From Microbacter margulisiae (GTDB lineage Bacteria > Bacteroidota > Bacteroidia > Bacteroidales > Paludibacteraceae): DNA of 64,000 nucleotides. Location of the stretch: assembly GCF_014192515.1 (NCBI RefSeq), contig NZ_JACHYB010000002.1, positions 310,001 to 374,000 of the forward strand, in the 5' to 3' direction. Below the pieces are notes generated by a model, which was not told the DNA's origin, did not search any database, and was given only the letters and a program-made list of their open reading frames with translations. This document shows positions 3,951 to 52,131 of this stretch, in pieces; position 1 is the stretch's first letter; every line of letters begins with the position of its first letter. The translations under genes were made by a program, and so were the position numbers.

Positions 3951-3954
3951 TATG

Positions 3955-4348
3955 TGGAGCCGGCGGGAGTCGAACCCGCGTCCAAACGAGGAAGCAATAA
4001 GCTTTCTACATGTTTATTTTCGCTTAAATTTTCGAGTATTAGTAAGGCCGAAACTACCAACGTATACCTTATCCTTTTTTGCTTCATTTAGTACACAAGG
4101 CTGTACCAAACTATTCTCGATTTAACTGCACCTCTTTATCAAATAGCCTCGAGACTACGGCATTTGAGAGATGTCTCGTCCCCTCATCTTGAGGGGATTA
4201 AGCTATGATCTACTATTCTTCAATCAAGCAGCAAGAGCGTAATTATTTTCGCCAGATATAGTTTGAGTATCGATATTTACGAGCAGATTACACAGCGCTC
4301 GACATGCTTACTTACCTCTTCTACCCGCTGTCAAAACCAGACGACCCC
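3955..4348 (-). ncRNA. ssrA: tmRNA (ssrA)
   Basis: Transfer-messenger RNA for trans-translation, 394 nt. The 5' strand GGGGTCG (ending at 4348) pairs over seven bases, with two G-U pairs, with the 3' strand CGGCTCC, followed by discriminator A at 3955; CCA is not encoded. The T-arm GCGGG-TTCGACT-CCCGC precedes it. The tag frame (4224-4253 on the minus strand) encodes GENNYALAA then TGA, the typical Bacteroidetes degradation tag; the first alanine comes from the charged tmRNA. The conserved 5' block TCTGGTTTTGACAGCGGGTA is also present. Confidence 0.97.
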
Positions 4349-41809: not shown

Positions 41810-41883
41810 GGCCCCGTGGCTCAACTGAATAGAGCATCTGACTACGGATCAGAAGGTTACAGGTTTGAATCCTGTCGGGGTCA
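41810..41883 (+). tRNA. tRNA-Arg (anticodon ACG)
   Basis: 74 nt, full cloverleaf. Acceptor GGCCCCG / CGGGGTC with one G-U pair, D-arm GCTC/GAGC, anticodon stem TCTGA/TCAGA with loop CTACGGA (anticodon ACG, positions 34-36; A34 is expected to be changed to inosine), T-arm ACAGG-TTTGAAT-CCTGT, discriminator A. CCA not encoded. Confidence 0.97.
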
Positions 41884-43284: not shown

Positions 43285-43357
43285 GGTACCATAGCTCAGT
43301 TGGTAGAGCAAAGGACTGAAAATCCTTGTGTCCCCGGTTCGATTCCTGGTGGTACCA
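43285..43357 (+). tRNA. tRNA-Phe (anticodon GAA)
   Basis: 73 nt. Acceptor GGTACCA/TGGTACC, D-arm GCTC/GAGC, anticodon stem AAGGA/TCCTT with loop CTGAAAA (anticodon GAA), T-arm CCCGG-TTCGATT-CCTGG with one C-T mismatch in the middle of the stem, discriminator A, CCA not encoded. Confidence 0.96.
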
Positions 43358-43421: not shown

Positions 43422-45305
43422 ATGTCTCTCATTGATTTTCAATCCAAGCGTGAAATCGAACTTCTTTCTCCTGCAAAAACGGCCGATATAGGCATTGAAG
43501 CTATTAATCATGGAGCTGACGCTGTATATATAGGGGCTCCACACTTTAGCGCACGTGCTGCTGCCGGGAATTCAATTGCTGATATCACCAGATTAATCAA
43601 TTACGCCCACAGGTTCCGCGCAAAAGTATACATTGCGCTTAATACGATTTTAACCAATGCAGAATTACAGCTTGCAGAAAGCATCATTTGGCAACTATAC
43701 GAAGCTGGTGCTGATGCATTAATTGTCCAGGACATGGGATTGCTGGAGCTTTCATTACCTCCCATTGCACTGCATGCTAGCACACAAACAGATAATCGAT
43801 CGCTCGATAAAATCAAATTTTTAGAAAATACCGGATTCTCTCAAATCGTATTAGCGCGTGAATTATCACTGGAACAAATAAAGCTTATCACGTCGCAAAC
43901 ATCTGCAAAAATTGAATGTTTTGTGCATGGAGCCTTGTGCGTTTCATACAGTGGTCAATGCTATGCAAGTCAAGCACTACGAGGTCGAAGTGCAAACCGG
44001 GGCGAGTGTGCTCAATTATGTCGCCTACCCTATCAATTGGAAGATGGGAACGGAAAAATATTAAGTAGCCAAAAACATTTTCTATCCCTGAAAGATCTCA
44101 ATCTGTCTGCATATTTAGCTGAAATGATGGATGTTGGCGTTTCTTCTTTCAAAATCGAAGGGAGGCTTAAGGAGATGAGTTATGTAAAAAATATAACGGC
44201 ATTTTACCGCAAAAAACTTGATCAATTGTTGATGAGATCAGATCGTTATGTAAAAAGCTCATTGGGGAATGTCAAATTTTCCTTTGACCCAGACCCCGAA
44301 CGCACGTTTTATAGAGGAGCAACTGATTATTTTTTACATCAGCGCAAAACACAGATGGTTCAACTACAAACGCCAAAGTCGATAGGACAACAACTAGGCA
44401 CAGTAAGAAAACAGGGAAAAGGGACATTAACCGTTAACACAAAATACGACTTGCATAACGGGGATGGACTTTGCTTTGTTTCTTCAGATGGCACTTTAAC
44501 CGGCTTCCGGGTTAATCGCATTGAAAATGATCTCATTTTTCCATTTAAAATGCCGGATATAAAACCGGGGACAACACTTTACCGTAATTTCGACCAAGCT
44601 TTTGAAGATCAGCTTGCCAAACCATCTGCTGAAAGAAAAATTCCACTTCGGCTATCTTTTTCCGATACAGAAGATGGATTTAATATAAATGCGAACATCG
44701 ACAGAATGGAGCCATTCGCTTTTCATTTTTCATACGATAAAGAACTGTCTAAAAACGGCATAGAAATAACTCAACAAAACATTATTAAGCAATTAGGCAA
44801 GTTAGGCGACTCTGTTTTTACGTTAGAAAAGATAGATATTACACTATCAAATGCCTGGTTTATTCCATCCTCGGTATTAACGGTCTGGCGCCGTACTATG
44901 GTGGAACAACTGGAACAAACAATACATCATTTACTCAAACCGGATAATACAAAAAAGAATAACAACCTCCATCCCGCTCTATTTCCTCAATCAAGACTTA
45001 CTTATTTAGGAAATGTGGCAAATGACAAAGCACGTACATTCTATCTATCACATGGCGTGACATCCATCGAACCCGCATTGGAATCCGGCGGGACATTATC
45101 ATCCGATAGTCCGGTGATGACCACAAAGTATTGCTTAAAATATGAAATGGGATGGTGTCCAAGACAACAACCGGATACCATCCCACAAGAACCTTTATTT
45201 TTACAAGGAGCTCACGATCGTTTGCAACTTCATTTCAATTGTGCAGCCTGCGAAATGCAGATAATCATTGCCAATAAAAAGCAGAACTGCAAACCCCGTA
45301 ATTAG
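43422..45305 (+). CDS. Peptidase U32 family protein
   Basis: A 627-residue U32-family protein. N-terminal barrel (about 10-330): IELLSPAKTADIGIEAINHGADAVYIGAPHFSAR, ALNTILTNAELQLAE, ALIVQDMGLLEL, and the conserved cysteine cluster with CFVHGALCVSYSGQCYAS, NRGECAQLCRLPY. The C-terminal 290 residues end in a further cysteine pair (FNCAACEMQI). Named peptidases, many U32 members instead act in RNA hydroxylation (E. coli RlhA, TrhP); this one has the long RlhA-like layout. Function beyond the family is not assignable. Its stop overlaps the stop of the convergent tyrA by 4 nt. Confidence 0.9.
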   Translation: MSLIDFQSKREIELLSPAKTADIGIEAINHGADAVYIGAPHFSARAAAGNSIADITRLINYAHRFRAKVYIALNTILTNAELQLAESIIWQLYEAGADALIVQDMGLLELSLPPIALHASTQTDNRSLDKIKFLENTGFSQIVLARELSLEQIKLITSQTSAKIECFVHGALCVSYSGQCYASQALRGRSANRGECAQLCRLPYQLEDGNGKILSSQKHFLSLKDLNLSAYLAEMMDVGVSSFKIEGRLKEMSYVKNITAFYRKKLDQLLMRSDRYVKSSLGNVKFSFDPDPERTFYRGATDYFLHQRKTQMVQLQTPKSIGQQLGTVRKQGKGTLTVNTKYDLHNGDGLCFVSSDGTLTGFRVNRIENDLIFPFKMPDIKPGTTLYRNFDQAFEDQLAKPSAERKIPLRLSFSDTEDGFNINANIDRMEPFAFHFSYDKELSKNGIEITQQNIIKQLGKLGDSVFTLEKIDITLSNAWFIPSSVLTVWRRTMVEQLEQTIHHLLKPDNTKKNNNLHPALFPQSRLTYLGNVANDKARTFYLSHGVTSIEPALESGGTLSSDSPVMTTKYCLKYEMGWCPRQQPDTIPQEPLFLQGAHDRLQLHFNCAACEMQIIIANKKQNCKPRN

Positions 45306-46075
45306 GCTATATTCTCCCTGATTTTCTGTAAAAAAGCCTGCATCTTTTTCGAATCCTTCTTCTCGATTATTGTCAACAACTCACTTAATTGATCTCTGAT
45401 GTTAACCAGCTGCTGAGGAGTATATGGATTAAACAAAATTTCAGTTAATAAATAATCATCTTCGGAGAGCAATCCATGTGCAATATTTAAATGGCGTTTA
45501 AAAGTAGTCCCCGGAGCCTCCTGATGTTTCATAACGGCTCCAAAAATTAACGTAGAAGCAAATGGAATAGCTAGGGAATAAGCGGTAGTTTGATCGTGCT
45601 CCTGAAATGAATATTCAAAAATCGACAGTTTCAACGAACCATATAGCTCCCTGAAAAACAGTTTTCCCTGAGGATCTGATTCTGCAATAATAATAGCGCT
45701 TTGGGAAGACAAATCACTTAAACTTGCAAATGTAGGGCCAAACATAGGATGAGTAGACACGAAACGAAATCCACTATTGGCATAAAAATCAGGAAGTCCT
45801 GTTTTGACCGAAGCGATATCAGACAACAAACATTCTTTGGACAAAAACGGGATGACATCCCGGAAAGCTTTTAACGTATGTTTGATGGTGACTGCATTGA
45901 TTACAAGCTCAGGATCAAACGAGCTAACTTCCTCAAGTTGAGACATGCGGATCGTGTTATAGACAAAACGCAAACGCTTAGGATCTGCATCATAAAGAGC
46001 GACTTCATGCTGAAAACTTAATACATCAGCAAAAAAAGAACCCATTTTGCCCGCTCCAAGAATTAGAATACGCAT
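45302..46075 (-). CDS. tyrA: Prephenate dehydrogenase
   Basis: Converts prephenate to 4-hydroxyphenylpyruvate for tyrosine. The 257 residues have a Rossmann site ILGAGKMGSFFADVL, LLSDIASVKTGL, STHPMFGPTFASL (substrate His block) and a helical C-terminal domain. At 257 residues it is at the short end of the family, with no ACT domain, so feedback by tyrosine through ACT is absent. Last gene of the pheA-tyrA operon, 21 nt after the DAHP synthase-chorismate mutase gene. Confidence 0.92.
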   Translation of the reverse strand: MRILILGAGKMGSFFADVLSFQHEVALYDADPKRLRFVYNTIRMSQLEEVSSFDPELVINAVTIKHTLKAFRDVIPFLSKECLLSDIASVKTGLPDFYANSGFRFVSTHPMFGPTFASLSDLSSQSAIIIAESDPQGKLFFRELYGSLKLSIFEYSFQEHDQTTAYSLAIPFASTLIFGAVMKHQEAPGTTFKRHLNIAHGLLSEDDYLLTEILFNPYTPQQLVNIRDQLSELLTIIEKKDSKKMQAFLQKIRENIA

Positions 46076-46096: not shown

Positions 46097-47164
46097 TTAT
46101 TCACTCTTGTTCATTAATTCCAATTGCACGCGCACTGACTCTTCATGAATTGCCTCGAGAATATTTTTCATAAATTCGCCATTAATACCAATCGATTGAG
46201 CCTGACTTATCCGATTATGCAAAATCTCATCATAACGTACAGTTTGTAAAACCGGCATGCCATGTTCCTTCTTGTAAGTCCCGATTTCACGGGACACGCG
46301 AAAACGCTTTGCCAACACTTCTAATAACTGATTGTCCAGGTCATCGATTTGATGGCGTAAAACAGATAAATCTTCGGTAGTTTGATTCATTTTACGAACC
46401 ACCAGGTGTTGAAGGATATGTTCCAGCACATCAGGCGTAATTTGTTGGTTTTTATCACTCCATGCTTCGTCAGGATTGCAATGCGATTCTATAATTAGTC
46501 CTTCAAATTGCAAATCAAGCGCTTGTTGTGAAATCGAGGCAATTAATTCGCGACGCCCTCCGATATGACTAGGATCACAAATAATTGGCATTTCAGGCAT
46601 CCGGCGACGTAACTCGATAGGAATATGCCATTGTGGAATATTGCGATATACTGATTTATCATACGTACTAAATCCACGATGAATGACAGCAAGACGACGA
46701 ATTCCGGCATTATATACTCGTTCGATAGCACCAATCCACAAATCCACATCAGGATTTACAGGATTCTTTATTAAGACCGGAACATCAACACCTTCTAACA
46801 CATCGGCAATTTCCTGAACTGCAAAAGGATTAGCCGTCGTACGAGCGCCAATCCATAAAATATCAATGCCATATTTTAATGCCTCATATACATGTTTTGC
46901 CGTAGCTACCTCAATAGCCGTCAACATGCCTGTCTCCTGTTTCACACGTTTCAACCATGGCAGCCCAACACTACCAACACCCTCAAAACCGCCAGGTTTT
47001 GTACGTGGTTTCCAAATACCGGCCCGAAAGATTTGAATTCCTTTATCGGCCAACTGATGAGCCGTAGTTAATGTCTGTTCTTCAGTTTCAGCACTACACG
47101 GACCTGCTATTACCAAAGGCCTGGATTCCTCTGTCATAGGTTCAAAAATCGGTTTCAATTCCAT
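46097..47164 (-). CDS. Bifunctional DAHP synthase/chorismate mutase
   Basis: A 355-residue fusion. The N-terminal type I-beta DAHP synthase domain (about 1-255) shows VIAGPCSAETEEQ, FRAGIWKPRTKPGGFEGVG, IGARTTANPFAVQEIAD, KNPVNPD and ICDPSHIGGRRE. The C-terminal AroQ-type chorismate mutase domain (about 265-350) shows LSVLRHQIDDLDNQLLEVLAKRF and SREIGTYKKEHG. It thus catalyses the first committed shikimate step and the branch step to prephenate. In related Bacteroidetes fusions the mutase domain also confers feedback by prephenate. 27 nt after the aminotransferase gene. Confidence 0.95.
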   Translation of the reverse strand: MELKPIFEPMTEESRPLVIAGPCSAETEEQTLTTAHQLADKGIQIFRAGIWKPRTKPGGFEGVGSVGLPWLKRVKQETGMLTAIEVATAKHVYEALKYGIDILWIGARTTANPFAVQEIADVLEGVDVPVLIKNPVNPDVDLWIGAIERVYNAGIRRLAVIHRGFSTYDKSVYRNIPQWHIPIELRRRMPEMPIICDPSHIGGRRELIASISQQALDLQFEGLIIESHCNPDEAWSDKNQQITPDVLEHILQHLVVRKMNQTTEDLSVLRHQIDDLDNQLLEVLAKRFRVSREIGTYKKEHGMPVLQTVRYDEILHNRISQAQSIGINGEFMKNILEAIHEESVRVQLELMNKSE

Positions 47165-47191: not shown

Positions 47192-48379
47192 CTATAATTT
47201 AGATTTATTTCGTTTCAAATTCTGAATCCGTACCAATGCTTCTGCAAGTTTTTCTTCCGGGCTGCAAAGCGAGATGCGAATATAATTAGCCCCTTTGCTG
47301 CCAAAGATAAATCCAGGCGTTACAAAGACATTTGCTCCATAAAGGATTTCATCTGCCAATTCACCTGCATCTGCATAGCAGCCGGAGATTTTTCCCCATA
47401 AAAACATCCCCACTTGCTCGGGGTCATATGTACATTCAAGTGACTTCATAATTTCTTCTGCAATTACTCTACGTTTAGCATAGACATCGTAATTTTTTGC
47501 CTCATGCCATTCAGGAGTATTATGCAATGCTTCCACAGCAGCCACTTGCAACGGACGAAACATTCCGGAATCAATATTACTCTTCACTCGTAAAATCCAG
47601 TCGATAAATTGTGCGTTAGCAGCAACCATGCCGATGCGCCAACCCGACATGTTATGCGATTTACTCATGGAATTCAGTTCAATGCAGATATCCTTTGCTC
47701 CTTCGCTTGATAAAATACTCAAATGTTTTTTGTTCAGGATAAAACTATATGGATTATCATTACAAATCACGATGTGATGTTTCATTCCAAAAGCAACCAA
47801 CTTGTCAAACAATTCACGGTTTGCACCAGCGCCGGTAGGCATATTGGGATAATTTACCCACATCAGTTTTACATGGGATAAATCCATCTTTTCCAAAGCA
47901 TCAAAATCAGGTTGCCAATGATTATTCTCATCCAGATCATAGGGAATCACATTGGCTTCAACTAATTTACTGACAGAAGTGTAGGTCGGATAACCCGGAT
48001 TTGGGACTAAAACTCCGTCGCCGGGATTAAGAAAAGCCAGTGAAATATGCAAAATACCCTCTTTTGATCCCATCAAAGGCAAGATTTCATTGACAGGATT
48101 CAACATTACATTAAACCATGTTTTATACCATTCTGCAAATGACTCTCTCAATTCGGGAATACCATTATAACTTTGGTATCCATGCACGTCTGGTTTCTCC
48201 GCTTCGTTCTTCAATGCTTTAATCGTAGCCTCGGATGGAGGTAAATCAGGCATGCCAATACCAAGGCTAATAACATTTTTCCCTTCACGATTCATTTGAG
48301 CAATTTCTCTCAATTTCGTCGAGAAATAGTATTCGCTGACAGTATTTAGACGATTTGCCGGTTTGATATCTTGAAACAT
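47192..48379 (-). CDS. Class I/II aminotransferase (probable aromatic)
   Basis: A 395-residue PLP fold-type I aminotransferase. Blocks: ISLGIGMPDLPPSEATIKAL, YQSYNGIPELRESFAEWY, VNYPNMPTGAGA, NDNPYSF and the PLP lysine in NSMSKSHNMSGWRIGM. It resembles LL-diaminopimelate and aspartate/aromatic aminotransferases. Placed between pheA and the DAHP synthase fusion, it very likely transaminates phenylpyruvate and hydroxyphenylpyruvate (or prephenate). Substrate is inferred from the operon. 53 nt after pheA. Confidence 0.9.
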   Translation of the reverse strand: MFQDIKPANRLNTVSEYYFSTKLREIAQMNREGKNVISLGIGMPDLPPSEATIKALKNEAEKPDVHGYQSYNGIPELRESFAEWYKTWFNVMLNPVNEILPLMGSKEGILHISLAFLNPGDGVLVPNPGYPTYTSVSKLVEANVIPYDLDENNHWQPDFDALEKMDLSHVKLMWVNYPNMPTGAGANRELFDKLVAFGMKHHIVICNDNPYSFILNKKHLSILSSEGAKDICIELNSMSKSHNMSGWRIGMVAANAQFIDWILRVKSNIDSGMFRPLQVAAVEALHNTPEWHEAKNYDVYAKRRVIAEEIMKSLECTYDPEQVGMFLWGKISGCYADAGELADEILYGANVFVTPGFIFGSKGANYIRISLCSPEEKLAEALVRIQNLKRNKSKL

Positions 48380-48432: not shown

Positions 48433-49275
48433 TCAAACGGTTTGTACTCCCTCTTTGTATTCACCCAAGATGCGTAATTTTTGGGTTAATGGCAAAATAG
48501 CATCAAGCGATTGGCGATAACGCACATAATCAGTATATGTAATATCAATATAAAACAAATACTCCCACTCCTGCCCTACCACGGGAAGTGATTGAATCTT
48601 CGTCAAATTAATATTGTAAAATGACAAAATAGTCAACACTTTAGAGAGGCTGCCTTCTTCGTGTGGCAAAGAAAAAACCAACGAAGCCTTGTCTCTTGGC
48701 AGATCAACATTTAACTTATCTCTCATCAGTTCATTACCAACTACCAAAAAACGGGTATAATTATGTTTATTCGTTTCAATTTCTTCCGCTAAGATTTCCA
48801 ATCCGAAAAGTTCAGCAGCATAACGGCTACAAATGGCAGCTTGCCGTTTAGCATGATGTTTTGCAATCCGCAAACCTTCAGCAGCAGTATCTTCAGCCTC
48901 AATAAGCTGAATAGATGGATATTGAAGAAAAAATTCTTCACATTGCATCAAAGCCATATAATGAGAATGCACCTCATGAATATCTTTCAGTGTTTGACCG
49001 GGCAAAGCCACTAAATTATGCTGGATACGTAACTTTTGTTCTCCTAAAATGGTCAGGTTACTTTCACGCAGCAGACCATAGTTTGGCAACAAACTGCCTG
49101 CAATGGTATTTTCAATAGCTACCATACCGACCATCAAACTATCATTGGCCAGATTAGCAAACAATTCCTTGAATGTATTACAAGGCACTATTTCAATTTT
49201 TTCTTCTCCAAAATAATAATGTGCTGCAATGTCGTGAAACGAACCGACAATTCCTTGAATGGCTACTTTTATCAT
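48433..49275 (-). CDS. pheA: Prephenate dehydratase
   Basis: Makes phenylpyruvate from prephenate. The 280-residue protein has the dehydratase domain (about 1-180; IQGIVGSFHDIAAHYYF, VAIENTIAGSLLPNY, SHYMALMQCEEFF, and the catalytic TRF in NKHNYTRFLVVG) and a C-terminal ACT domain (about 195-270; KASLVFSLPHEEGSLSKVLTIL, ESLP-like SLPVVGQEWEYLFYIDI) for phenylalanine feedback. First gene of the four-gene aromatic operon. Directly upstream lie a leader peptide rich in Phe/Tyr codons and a terminator, so transcription is probably controlled by attenuation as well. Confidence 0.96.
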   Translation of the reverse strand: MIKVAIQGIVGSFHDIAAHYYFGEEKIEIVPCNTFKELFANLANDSLMVGMVAIENTIAGSLLPNYGLLRESNLTILGEQKLRIQHNLVALPGQTLKDIHEVHSHYMALMQCEEFFLQYPSIQLIEAEDTAAEGLRIAKHHAKRQAAICSRYAAELFGLEILAEEIETNKHNYTRFLVVGNELMRDKLNVDLPRDKASLVFSLPHEEGSLSKVLTILSFYNINLTKIQSLPVVGQEWEYLFYIDITYTDYVRYRQSLDAILPLTQKLRILGEYKEGVQTV

Positions 49276-49288
49276 GATTATTCTTATT

Positions 49289-49321
49289 AAAAAAAAAATC
49301 CCGCCTGAAATAGCGGGATTT
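49289..49321 (-). terminator. Attenuator terminator upstream of pheA
   Basis: On the minus strand, a 9-bp stem AAATCCCGC / GCGGGATTT with an 8-nt loop followed by an unbroken run of ten T, ending about 14 nt before the pheA ATG. The flanking genes are divergent (pheA minus, kbl plus), so no gene ends here; a terminator in this place can only act on the pheA leader transcript. Confidence 0.9.
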
Positions 49322-49352
49322 TTATGTACAACCTAAAATTGATTACTTATGG

Positions 49353-49427
49353 TTAAGGCAACAAACTCCCGCTTTTACTCTGGCTAAAGTAAAAGTAAAA
49401 AAAGAAATATGCAAAAGTTTGAGCCAT
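49353..49427 (-). CDS. Phe/Tyr-rich leader peptide of the pheA operon
   Basis: A 24-codon ORF (ATG at 49427, TAA at 49353-49355) in the 5' leader of pheA. Residues 5-14 read FAYFFFYFYF: six Phe and three Tyr in ten codons. The remaining residues are ordinary (Ser, Lys, Gly, Leu). It starts about 20 nt after the predicted transcription start and ends 32 nt before the terminator stem. Codons 18-20 (49367-49373, AGCGGGA on the minus strand) are complementary to TCCCGCT in the terminator 5' arm (49312-49318). By analogy with E. coli pheL it senses charged tRNA-Phe and tRNA-Tyr through ribosome stalling. Confidence 0.85.
   Translation of the reverse strand: MAQTFAYFFFYFYFSQSKSGSLLP
49367..49373 (-). 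promoter_or_regulatory. Antiterminator segment inside the leader ORF
   Basis: AGCGGGA on the minus strand can pair with TCCCGCT (49312-49318), the 5' arm of the pheA attenuator; after one mismatch three further A-T pairs can form. A ribosome stalled in the Phe/Tyr run would leave it free; a ribosome reaching the stop codon would cover or lie next to it. Confidence 0.7.
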
Positions 49428-49453
49428 AATTTGAATCGTTATTTTTTCTGATG

Positions 49454-49484
49454 CAAAAGTAATGGTTTATTATAAAAACACCAA
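49454..49484 (-). promoter_or_regulatory. Promoter of the pheA operon
   Basis: On the minus strand TTG (49482-49484), 20-nt spacer, TACTTTTG (49454-49461). Predicted start near 49447, giving a leader of about 170 nt that holds the leader peptide and attenuator. Confidence 0.75.
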
Positions 49485-49653: not shown

Positions 49654-50844
49654 ATGTATACAAAATTTCAAGAACATCTACGGCATGAACTTTCAGGGAT
49701 TCAAGCTGCCGGGTTGTACAAAAACGAAAGAGTCATTGAATCACCTCAGGGAGCTGAAATAGAAGTAAACGGACAAAAAGTGCTTAACTTTTGTGCCAAC
49801 AATTATCTGGGATTAGCCAACAACCCTATCCTTATCGAGGCTGCAAAACATGCCTTGGATACACGTGGGTATGGAATGTCTTCCGTTCGTTTTATCTGCG
49901 GAACACAAGATTTACATAAGCAACTGGAGGAAAAAATCGCTTCTTTTTTCGGAACGGAAGACACCATTTTATACGCTGCCTGTTTCGACGCCAACGGTGG
50001 CCTGTTTGAACCGTTGCTTACGGAAGAAGACGCTATCATTTCCGATGCTTTGAATCATGCATCCATTATTGACGGTGTACGTTTGTGCAAAGCGCAGCGG
50101 TTTCGTTATGCCAATGCAGACATGAACGACTTGGAAAAACAGTTACTGGCAGCACAATCAGCCCGTTTCCGCCTGATCGTAACCGATGGCGTCTTCTCTA
50201 TGGATGGCAATGTAGCTCCATTAGACAAAATCTATGCCCTGGCCGAACGTTATGGAGCCATGGTAATGGTGGATGAATCCCATTCGGCAGGTGTTGTGGG
50301 AACGACTGGAAGAGGAATTACAGAGCGTTTTAACCTTCGCGGTAAAATTGAACTCATCACCGGCACATTAGGAAAGGCATTCGGAGGAGCTATCGGGGGA
50401 TTTACCACCGGACGGAAAGAAATCATCGATATACTTCGGCAACGCTCCCGTCCTTATCTTTTTTCCAATTCACTACCTCCCATGGTGGTAGCCGCAGGCA
50501 TCCGAATGTTTGAGATGATGGATGAAACCAACCAGTTACAAGATAAACTGCATCAAAACACCGACTATTTCCTTACTCGAATGAAGGCCGCCGGATTTGA
50601 TATTAAGCCAACAGAATCGGCCATTTGTGCCATCATGCTTTATGATGCACGATTGTCGCAGGAAGTGGCAGCCCGTTTGCTAACCGAAGGAATTTACGTA
50701 ACCGGATTTTATTACCCTGTTGTACCCCAGGGACAGGCACGCATCCGGGTTCAAATTTCCGCTGCTCATGAAAAGGAACATCTTGATAAATGTATTGGTG
50801 CATTTACCAAAGTAGCACTGGAAATGGGAATCATAAAAAAATAA
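49654..50844 (+). CDS. kbl: Glycine C-acetyltransferase (2-amino-3-ketobutyrate CoA ligase)
   Basis: Cleaves 2-amino-3-ketobutyrate with CoA to glycine and acetyl-CoA, second step of threonine breakdown. The 396 residues equal E. coli Kbl in length. Blocks: NYLGLANNPILIEAAK, GYGMSSVRFICGTQDLHKQLE, VDESHSAGVVG and the PLP lysine K241 in GTLGKAFGGAIGGF. tdh, the first step, follows on the same strand. Confidence 0.97.
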   Translation: MYTKFQEHLRHELSGIQAAGLYKNERVIESPQGAEIEVNGQKVLNFCANNYLGLANNPILIEAAKHALDTRGYGMSSVRFICGTQDLHKQLEEKIASFFGTEDTILYAACFDANGGLFEPLLTEEDAIISDALNHASIIDGVRLCKAQRFRYANADMNDLEKQLLAAQSARFRLIVTDGVFSMDGNVAPLDKIYALAERYGAMVMVDESHSAGVVGTTGRGITERFNLRGKIELITGTLGKAFGGAIGGFTTGRKEIIDILRQRSRPYLFSNSLPPMVVAAGIRMFEMMDETNQLQDKLHQNTDYFLTRMKAAGFDIKPTESAICAIMLYDARLSQEVAARLLTEGIYVTGFYYPVVPQGQARIRVQISAAHEKEHLDKCIGAFTKVALEMGIIKK

Positions 50845-51102
50845 ACGCAGGAGAAAATCGGATTTTGGACATACATGAAACAGAATAATGTGATATGAAA
50901 CCAGGATGTGGAGATTTGAAGGTGGAAAGGACTCAGCAGACAACAAACAGCAGGTGGTAGAGAATAACATATAATTCATTATATTATTAGATTTTCTGTT
51001 ACCTGCCATCTTATAAGTCATTTCTTCCTCACCTTCTGATCTTTGTTAACTTACTACTGTTCAATCATATCCTAAATACTCATAAAGATAAATTATAAAC
51101 AT
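50845..51102 (+). other. kbl-tdh intergenic region
   Basis: 258 nt with no ORF that I trust. A possible -7 box GATCTTTG at 51038-51045 (G in the first position, as in the ssrA promoter) suggests that tdh may have its own promoter. Confidence 0.4.
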
Positions 51103-52131
51103 ATGAAAGCACTCGTAAAGCTTCGTCCCGAAAAAGGGATCTGGATGGAAGATGTTCCCCTGCCGCATGTAGGCATCAATGATGTGTTGATTAAAATCAA
51201 GAAAACAGCCATTTGCGGTACTGATTTACACATTTACAAATGGGACGAATGGTCGCAAAACACCATTAAAACGCCCATGACAATTGGGCACGAGTATGTG
51301 GGAGAAGTGGTAGAAATGGGCAAAGGAGTAAAAAATATTCATATCGGTGACCGCGTGACAGGAGAAGGACATATAGCATGCGGACATTGCAGGAACTGTC
51401 GTCGTGGAAAGCTTCATGTTTGTGAAAACTCTGTTGGCGTAGGTGTTAACCGGGATGGCGCTTTTGCCGAATACCTCTCGTTGCCGGCTGAGAATGTCGT
51501 ACATCTCGATTCCCGCATTTCCGATGAGATGGCTGCTATTATGGATCCGTTTGGAAATGCAACCCATGCCGCCTTATCGTTTCCTCTCATTGGAGAAGAT
51601 GTGCTCATCACCGGTGCAGGTCTGATCGGGACAATGGCAACCGCTATTTGTCGATTTGCCGGAGCCAGATACATTGTAGTCAGTGATTTGAATGATTACC
51701 GGCTGGAGATTGCAAAAAAAATGGGAGCAACCCTCACGATTAATCCTCAAAAGGGAGAAACTATTGAACAGGCAATCCATCAACTTCACATGCATGGATT
51801 CGATATCGGACTGGAAATGTCCGGATCGCCTGCTGCTTTTGAGGAGATGATCGAAAACATGTACAACGGTTCGAAAATTTCATTGTTGGGGATTTTACCC
51901 GGTTCTACACTGATCCGCTGGGATAAAGTCATTTTCAAAGCACTGACATTAAAAGGTATTTACGGGCGCGAAATGTGGGAGACATGGTACCAGATGGAAC
52001 AAATGCTTATCTCAGGCATTGACCTCACTCCCGTAATCACGCACCGCTTCCCGATCGATGATTTCCAAAAAGGATTTGATGTTATGGAGAGCGGACAATG
52101 CGGGAAAGTAATCCTGAATTGGGAAAAGTAA
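51103..52131 (+). CDS. tdh: L-threonine 3-dehydrogenase
   Basis: Zn-dependent medium-chain dehydrogenase oxidising L-threonine to 2-amino-3-ketobutyrate with NAD. The 342-residue protein matches E. coli Tdh: catalytic Zn ligands C38 (ICGTDLHIY), H63-E64 (GHEYVGEV), structural Zn cysteines in [15 protein letters not shown], and Rossmann [16 protein letters not shown]. Works with the upstream kbl. Followed by a long inverted repeat. Confidence 0.97.

Follow-up and report, generated by a model that had tools for sequence, protein, structure and literature searches.

In the 64,000-nucleotide stretch of Microbacter margulisiae DNA analyzed here (the window), the minus strand upstream of pheA carries what is very probably (about 0.93) a ribosome-mediated transcription attenuator of the pheL/trpL type that senses shortage of Phe or Tyr. 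The first-pass annotation had proposed that the pheA operon is preceded at this site by a complete leader-peptide attenuator for Phe and Tyr, and conservation and covariation in relatives strongly support this proposal. Read along the minus strand, a predicted promoter is followed by a 24-codon leader open reading frame (ORF), an antiterminator strand, a terminator with ten T and pheA. Each position assigned earlier to the TTG, the TACTTTTG box, the ORF, AGCGGGA (49373-49367), TCCCGCT (49318-49312), the ten T and the pheA ATG is correct. The features of the leader and of the operon are the following:

49454-49484, minus strand: predicted promoter (sequence match), with TTG at 49484-49482, a 20-nt spacer and the TAnnTTTG box TACTTTTG at 49461-49454
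49411-49430, minus strand: segment 1, leader start region to codon 6, in which CAAACTTTTGC (49421-49411) pairs with GCGGGAGTTTG (fold)
49353-49427, minus strand: leader peptide ORF, 24 codons plus TAA, MAQTFAYFFFYFYFSQSKSGSLLP (ORF reading; kept in relatives)
49386-49415, minus strand: regulatory codons 5-14, FAYFFFYFYF (sequence), proposed sensor of charged tRNA-Phe and tRNA-Tyr
49373-49394, minus strand: inner 1:2 hairpin, TTTTACTTT-AGCC-AGAGTAAAA, formed by the last aromatic codons and the codons just after them (fold, alignment)
49362-49374, minus strand: segment 2, antiterminator 5' strand AAGCGGGAGTTTG, inside the ORF, 11 nt past the last aromatic codon (covariation with segment 3)
49312-49323, minus strand: segment 3, terminator 5' arm AAAAATCCCGCT, common to the antiterminator (folding and covariation)
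49294-49305, minus strand: segment 4, terminator 3' arm GGCGGGATTTTT (folding and alignment)
49289-49298, minus strand: run of ten T ending the intrinsic terminator (sequence)
48433-49275, minus strand: pheA, prephenate dehydratase, first structural gene (ATG at 49275; PF00800)
47192-48379, minus strand: class I/II aminotransferase (PF00155), putatively an aromatic aminotransferase, the substrate being suggested by its position
46097-47164, minus strand: DAHP synthase fused to chorismate mutase (PF00793 and PF01817)
45302-46075, minus strand: tyrA, prephenate dehydrogenase (PF02153)

The four structural genes had been said to serve the synthesis of Phe and Tyr, and the Pfam families of the encoded proteins agree: judged by protein family, the products of the operon are the amino acids of the regulatory codons. 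The region carries a short ORF, predicted to be translated, with a cluster of codons for the products of the pathway. At least eight F or Y in 10 residues occur at a single place in the six frames of the window, the leader, and a TWY x 8 pattern had one match in the whole 3.56-Mb genome, again the leader (two matches for the reversed control pattern). The flanking gene, at 49654-50844 (+), is divergent from pheA, as previously described. The divergent neighbors occupy 49654-52131 (+); the first encodes a class I/II aminotransferase-fold protein (Pfam) that we take to resemble glycine C-acetyltransferase (kbl) and the next is presumably a zinc dehydrogenase resembling threonine dehydrogenase (tdh).

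Conservation of the leader

Upstream regions of pheA were gathered from named genomes and through searches at the level of the genus, the family, the class and the phylum. The family search had 101 matching genomes, of which 78 were used; the class search contributed 50 out of 53, and the phylum search supplied 13 more class genomes. The 80 named loci were the best of 165 and are biased to close relatives, the nearest of which by PheA are Paludibacter metagenome-assembled genomes (85% and 84% identity). Going by such names and by established taxonomy, the class is Bacteroidia. One locus (L224) had no match in the tblastn check of orientation. From 222 class loci we set aside four with less than 200 nt upstream and 10 whose 200-nt upstream duplicated that of another locus, and kept near-identical ones, which left 208. 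The 208 represent the PheA genes findable with the window's protein and do not give the share of the whole class that has a leader; the class search with the PheA query matched 53 of 198 genomes and left 145 without a match.

We called a leader when the 420 nt upstream contained an ORF of 8-62 codons with at least six aromatic residues in eight. Aligning the pheA upstreams of relatives in search of short ORFs with Phe/Tyr runs had been suggested as a check, and such ORFs are conserved: of the 208 distinct upstreams from the class, 179 have an aromatic-run leader, whereas dinucleotide shuffles predict 2.8 and the reverse complement has 7. Relaxing the criterion to five aromatic residues in eight raised the count to 188, and the full unit (leader, terminator and significant antiterminator) was found in 170. 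Neither leader nor full unit was present in the 28 pheA upstreams examined outside the class, which were the best-scoring of 95 matching genomes and included 12 from one family.

Twenty of the 208 class upstreams lacked a leader even at five of eight. L117, L124, L129, L130, L134, L135, L138, L140, L155, L211, L216, L231, L240, L242 and L243 are among the leaderless loci, and in some of them (L117, L134, L135 and L138) pheA closely follows another gene. At L006, the leader peptide is identical to that of L005, though it lies 114 nt further upstream of pheA, and no full unit was called.

Competing RNA structures

The terminator hairpin (49323-49294) has 12 bp, a 6-nt loop and a folding energy of -16.2 kcal/mol; the 9-bp stem reported earlier omitted A-U pairs. 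It places an intrinsic terminator between the leader and the first structural gene, and by itself is unremarkable (one found vs. 1.4 expected from shuffles of that 1.2 kb). The antiterminator was tested by pairing the stretch from the last aromatic codon to the hairpin with the 5' arm of the hairpin, with 100 shuffles per p value, in 198 leader-terminator units from 183 loci that formed 131 clusters at 75% identity. A few visibly wrong ORF-hairpin pairs (e.g., one row each in L003, L114 and L193; p 0.8, 0.53 and 0.45) and the ORF of L097, which is probably frame-shifted (p 0.39), were kept in all counts. The antiterminator duplex beat the shuffles at p<=0.05 in 115 of the 131 clusters and at p<=0.01 in 98 (mean z -3.8); 16 clusters failed.

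The antiterminator strand and the terminator arm also match each other specifically. Antiterminator energies averaged -14.30 kcal/mol with a unit's own arm vs. -9.92 with swapped arms (sd 0.21 in 2000 permutations; z -21), and a perfect Watson-Crick match over seven bases was seen in 54 of 101 cases, against 16.2 expected with swapped arms. The three strands co-vary in the 115 passing clusters: the third core position forms 88 G-C and 25 A-U antiterminator pairs, and C-G, U-G, G-C and U-A are all found at the fourth. Judged on a 29-row alignment (A1), 97.0% of the antiterminator cells are paired vs. 90.8% in shuffles (reached by 0/500), double-change cells number 17 vs. 4.2 expected (0/500), and pairing falls to 26-47% when the antiterminator is shifted by one to three columns. 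Two other counts from A1 were less distinctive: the number of double-change pairs was reached by 20/500 shuffles, and further pair types (5 vs. 7.2 expected) were below the shuffles (500/500). The terminator is 98.3% paired in the same alignment vs. 96.2% in shuffles (0/500). Compensatory changes in the pairing of 49312-49318 with 49367-49373, suggested earlier as a check, are seen as covariation in relatives, and the 2:3 antiterminator, exclusive with the 3:4 terminator, has covariation behind it.

A third structure emerged when the leader was folded alone. CAAACTTTTGC (49421-49411) pairs with GCGGGAGTTTG (49372-49362, in segment 2) and stacks on the TTTTACTTT-AGCC-AGAGTAAAA hairpin (49394-49373), with a total of -21.1 kcal/mol. 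The earlier description of only two competing structures, a design simpler than that of Escherichia coli pheL, had missed this 1:2 hairpin, which overlaps leader codons and would act as a protector. The figures for 1:2 pairing, as well as those for spacing and promoter given below, are restricted to the 115 clusters already passing the antiterminator test. Partner swapping shows the pairing to be specific (own -12.06 vs. swapped -8.20 kcal/mol; z -17; best of 5000 permutations -9.05). The 1:2 fold sequesters at least half of the antiterminator strand in 103 of the 115 clusters. When the fold includes the 22 nt after the antiterminator strand, its mean z is -2.9 and 77/115 clusters are below -2; ended at the end of that strand it is weak (median z about -1; 30/115 below -2). 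The column count in A1 is weaker as well, in a region that aligns with gaps: 86.7% paired vs. 84.5% in shuffles (0/500), with double-change pairs reached by 60/500 shuffles, pair types by 274/500 and double-change cells by 5/500.

In the energy model, blocking everything upstream of 49376, as a ribosome on codon 14 would, makes the antiterminator the best structure as far as the end of segment 3 (-19.1 kcal/mol). When no ribosome is present, the best structure for the same stretch is 1:2 (-24.9 kcal/mol) and the full leader folds as 1:2 plus terminator. Blocking 49385-49350, as a ribosome at the stop codon would, lets the terminator form.

The antiterminator strand starts at a median of 9 nt after the last aromatic codon (interquartile range 8-11; sd 2.5), as compared to a median of 20 (sd 16.7) for the best duplex in shuffled segments. 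The spacing is similar whether the strand starts inside the ORF (71 clusters, median 10) or from the stop codon onwards (44 clusters, median 9). Among the reference points compared, the antiterminator core keeps its steadiest distance to the last aromatic codon (sd 2.9 in 112 clusters); the sd is 5.7 for the start codon, 6.0 for the first aromatic codon, 8.6 for the terminator and 12.4 for the stop codon. Toeprint data place the leading edge of a ribosome approximately nine nucleotides beyond the codon in its A site. We therefore infer that a ribosome stalled on the last aromatic codon reaches to about the beginning of the antiterminator.

Both F and Y are present in the run in 114 of the 115 passing clusters, and the runs contain 583 F, 460 Y and 24 W, besides 144 other residues; ATG is the start codon of 113 of the 115 leaders. 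The interchange of F and Y in the runs speaks for sensing of tRNA charging at the level of codons over a fixed peptide. L192 is the sole passing leader with Phe but without Tyr in the run (FCFFFFFFF), and the leaders of L119, L120 and L132 include Trp among their aromatic codons (TYFWFYP). Four leader peptides had no match at E<=1 in Pfam and NCBIfam.

Promoter-like elements precede the leader in most of the passing clusters. The available text of PMC9723704 quotes TAnnTTTG as the -7 consensus. In 95 of these 115 clusters, vs. 6.4 expected from base shuffles, this motif lies no more than 90 nt before the leader start; it occurs in 2/115 of the control stretches after the aromatic run. A TTG stands 18-22 nt before it in 77/115 (0.4 expected from base shuffles). 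These matches suggest that the transcript begins just upstream of the leader.

Proposed mechanism and alternative explanations

In the model that we favor, transcription would start just past the TACTTTTG box, with a ribosome trailing RNA polymerase into the leader ORF. Under-charged tRNA-Phe or tRNA-Tyr would stall this ribosome somewhere in codons 5-14, where it would disrupt segment 1. Segment 2 would then be left free because it starts about 9-11 nt past the last aromatic codon, approximately at the leading edge of the stalled ribosome. Pairing of segment 2 with segment 3 would prevent the terminator from forming and allow transcription of pheA, the aminotransferase, the DAHP synthase-chorismate mutase and tyrA. 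With both tRNAs charged, the ribosome would cover segment 2, 3:4 would form and transcription would stop at the T run. If the leader were not translated, the 1:2 hairpin would hold segment 2 and transcription would terminate too.

The RNA structures described would equally serve any leader that stalls ribosomes at this position, and the nascent aromatic chain could, in principle, arrest the ribosome itself, perhaps by binding free Phe or Tyr. Known arrest peptides depend on specific residues. The leader sequence is not kept in this manner, with F and Y interchanging, W in some leaders and runs of varying length, which makes an arrest peptide quite improbable. Still less probable is that the U-rich run is kept for 1:2 pairing alone, the peptide being a by-product and the switch between terminator and antiterminator being moved by a protein, small RNA or metabolite. 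The run does pair with the A/G-rich stretch that follows it; however, pairing does not account for an in-frame ORF of aromatic codons in 179/208 upstreams, nor for a core placed more steadily relative to the last aromatic codon (sd 2.9) than relative to the terminator (8.6) or the stop codon (12.4). Further, no riboswitch or T-box family reached the gathering score here. As for a chance combination of low-complexity, AT-rich DNA with an ordinary terminator, the stretch is indeed AT-rich and terminator-like sites arise by chance (1.4 expected in 1.2 kb), yet the conservation and covariation in relatives and the single occurrence of the aromatic run in the genome refute this explanation, to which we give a negligible likelihood. 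The element is real and is found widely among the class members examined, and there is a high probability that it works as a leader-peptide attenuator of the pheL kind answering to two amino acids.

On a broader scale, we lean towards viewing these leaders as an old Bacteroidia attenuator family, absent from Rfam, in which one leader would work as an OR gate (Phe or Tyr shortage) over both branches of the pathway. Selection may have placed the antiterminator at the leading edge of the ribosome (about 9 nt past the last aromatic codon), with the stop codon free to shift from before it to after it. Tandem duplication in some lineages, partly with own pairings, would have produced two Phe/Tyr checkpoints, and the pheL layout may have been reached independently of the proteobacteria. 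Such a family would provide a testable rule for the control of Phe and Tyr synthesis in many Bacteroidia, including relatives of Bacteroides and Prevotella. It also suggests that attenuation by leader peptides, in its classical form, is common in a class for which the papers found only hint at it. The 131 clusters offer natural variants with which to measure the precision needed in placing the stalled ribosome. A new RNA family could be built from the set because no Rfam model reaches its gathering score and the four leaders have no match in Pfam or NCBIfam.

Relation to known attenuators

The first-pass annotation noted that the Rfam Phe leader is a gammaproteobacterial family and regarded the attenuator as undescribed in this phylum. 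The remark on Rfam holds: no family matched at gathering score here or at the element in 15 relatives. Phe_leader (RF01859) scored 21.0 bits vs. a gathering score of 55, over 49344-49290 only, and had no match in the 15 relatives. The scan for T-box or other cis-regulatory families yielded sub-threshold scores only (e.g., Trp_leader, 23.9 bits vs. 41; GcvB, 25.6 vs. 42), and the two hits among the relatives were both Flavo-1 elsewhere in L137.

The likeness to the pheL-pheA leader of E. coli (RF01859) is in the layout. Both have four segments, a leader rich in Phe codons, a 1:2 hairpin that uses leader codons and a G+C-rich terminator just before pheA. The same pipeline applied to E. coli pheL returned the antiterminator strand TGGGAGGCGTTT, a 1:2 helix of TCGCATTCT with AGAATGCGA and the terminator 5' arm AAGGCCTCCC, the same layout, which also contradicts the idea of a simpler design. 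The antiterminator strand starts 7 nt after the last aromatic codon (Phe) in pheL and 11 nt in the window; it follows the stop codon in pheL, whereas it lies inside the ORF in the window. Unlike pheL, the window leader reads Tyr besides Phe, and the type of promoter differs. The operon in the window comprises both branches, from pheA to tyrA, whereas tyrA and aroF of E. coli are on the strand opposite pheA. Going by its name, the Leu/phe leader (RF01743) is presumably another case of one leader for two amino acids; it concerns a different pair in a different phylum and had no match in the window. It is listed for Lactococcus lactis in a table in the available text of PMC2864571.

The claim of novelty did not stand for the attenuator as such. 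In 2005, the operon pheA>hisHb>aroAI-beta-aroQ>tyrA of Bacteroides thetaiotaomicron was listed with a putative attenuator in front of it, taken from Merino's website (PMC1173090, Table 7). The gene order is the same and the organism related, and it is probably the same element, predicted at that time for one species. The listing is as putative only; the available text describes no leader peptide, Phe/Tyr codons or conservation, and the main text does not contain the word "leader". A structured 5' element of pheA without an Rfam family has also been reported in Flavobacteriaceae, in Flavobacterium psychrophilum (PMC9723704). The available part of that work infers leader-peptide attenuation before amino-acid operons, gives no peptide or pairing for pheA and refers, for conservation, to other genera of Flavobacteriaceae.

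Other reports are more distant. The uORFC-13-1 motif upstream of aroF, an aromatic-pathway gene, has a Phe-codon uORF beside a terminator, with attenuation proposed (PMC8632094); it differs by description, with at least one Phe codon, 24 representatives and no Tyr mentioned in the available text. Small ORFs in long 5' UTRs of B. thetaiotaomicron are reminiscent of leader peptides in the available portion of PMC7366714, from whose main text pheA is absent, and leader genes in general, with counts for Bacteroidetes, are treated in PMC4833913 as far as its text is available. We saw no description of the Phe/Tyr leader peptide among the papers that searches of the open-licence PMC library brought up; Vitreschak et al. 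(2004) and Lopatovskaya et al. (2010) may cover part of it. Within the reach of these searches, what is new comprises the leader peptide with its Phe and Tyr codons, the four-segment structure, the breadth, the spacing rule and the tandem copies.

Tandem units and other leaders

Six loci (L013, L028, L204, L206, L248 and L250) have two complete units in series before pheA, each of them having a leader, a terminator and a significant antiterminator of its own. L204, L206, L248 and L250 are closely alike and the tandem arrangement represents approximately three independent cases. Pairing averages -14.1 kcal/mol within units vs. -9.9 across units, and the antiterminator-terminator cores of the two units are partly different and self-matching (L204, L206, L248, L250, L028 and L013). 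Independence is incomplete in L028, where the second unit pairs slightly better with the arm of the first (-12.4 vs. -11.0). Six further loci have two leader-terminator pairs of which one antiterminator fails at p 0.05: L185 (0.15), L118 (0.76), L128 (0.07), L220 (0.09), L225 (0.14) and L011 (0.09).

A limited search of the same genome for a sister His leader (CAY x 5) gave nine partly overlapping matches at four places and no leader. One place is the start of a 304-codon ORF, one is within a 33-codon ORF without an ATG start, one is in no short ORF that we found and one reads His only in a different frame of a 235-codon ORF. No His-rich short ORF (four in eight) was seen in the 3.5 kb around hisG. 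The scan of the window for other leader-plus-terminator pairs produced four further hits, none of which we find convincing; one is an opposite-strand ORF using the same palindromic hairpin. Rfam also located in the window a tmRNA gene at 3952-4348 (-) and two tRNA genes at 41810-41883 (+) and 43285-43357 (+).
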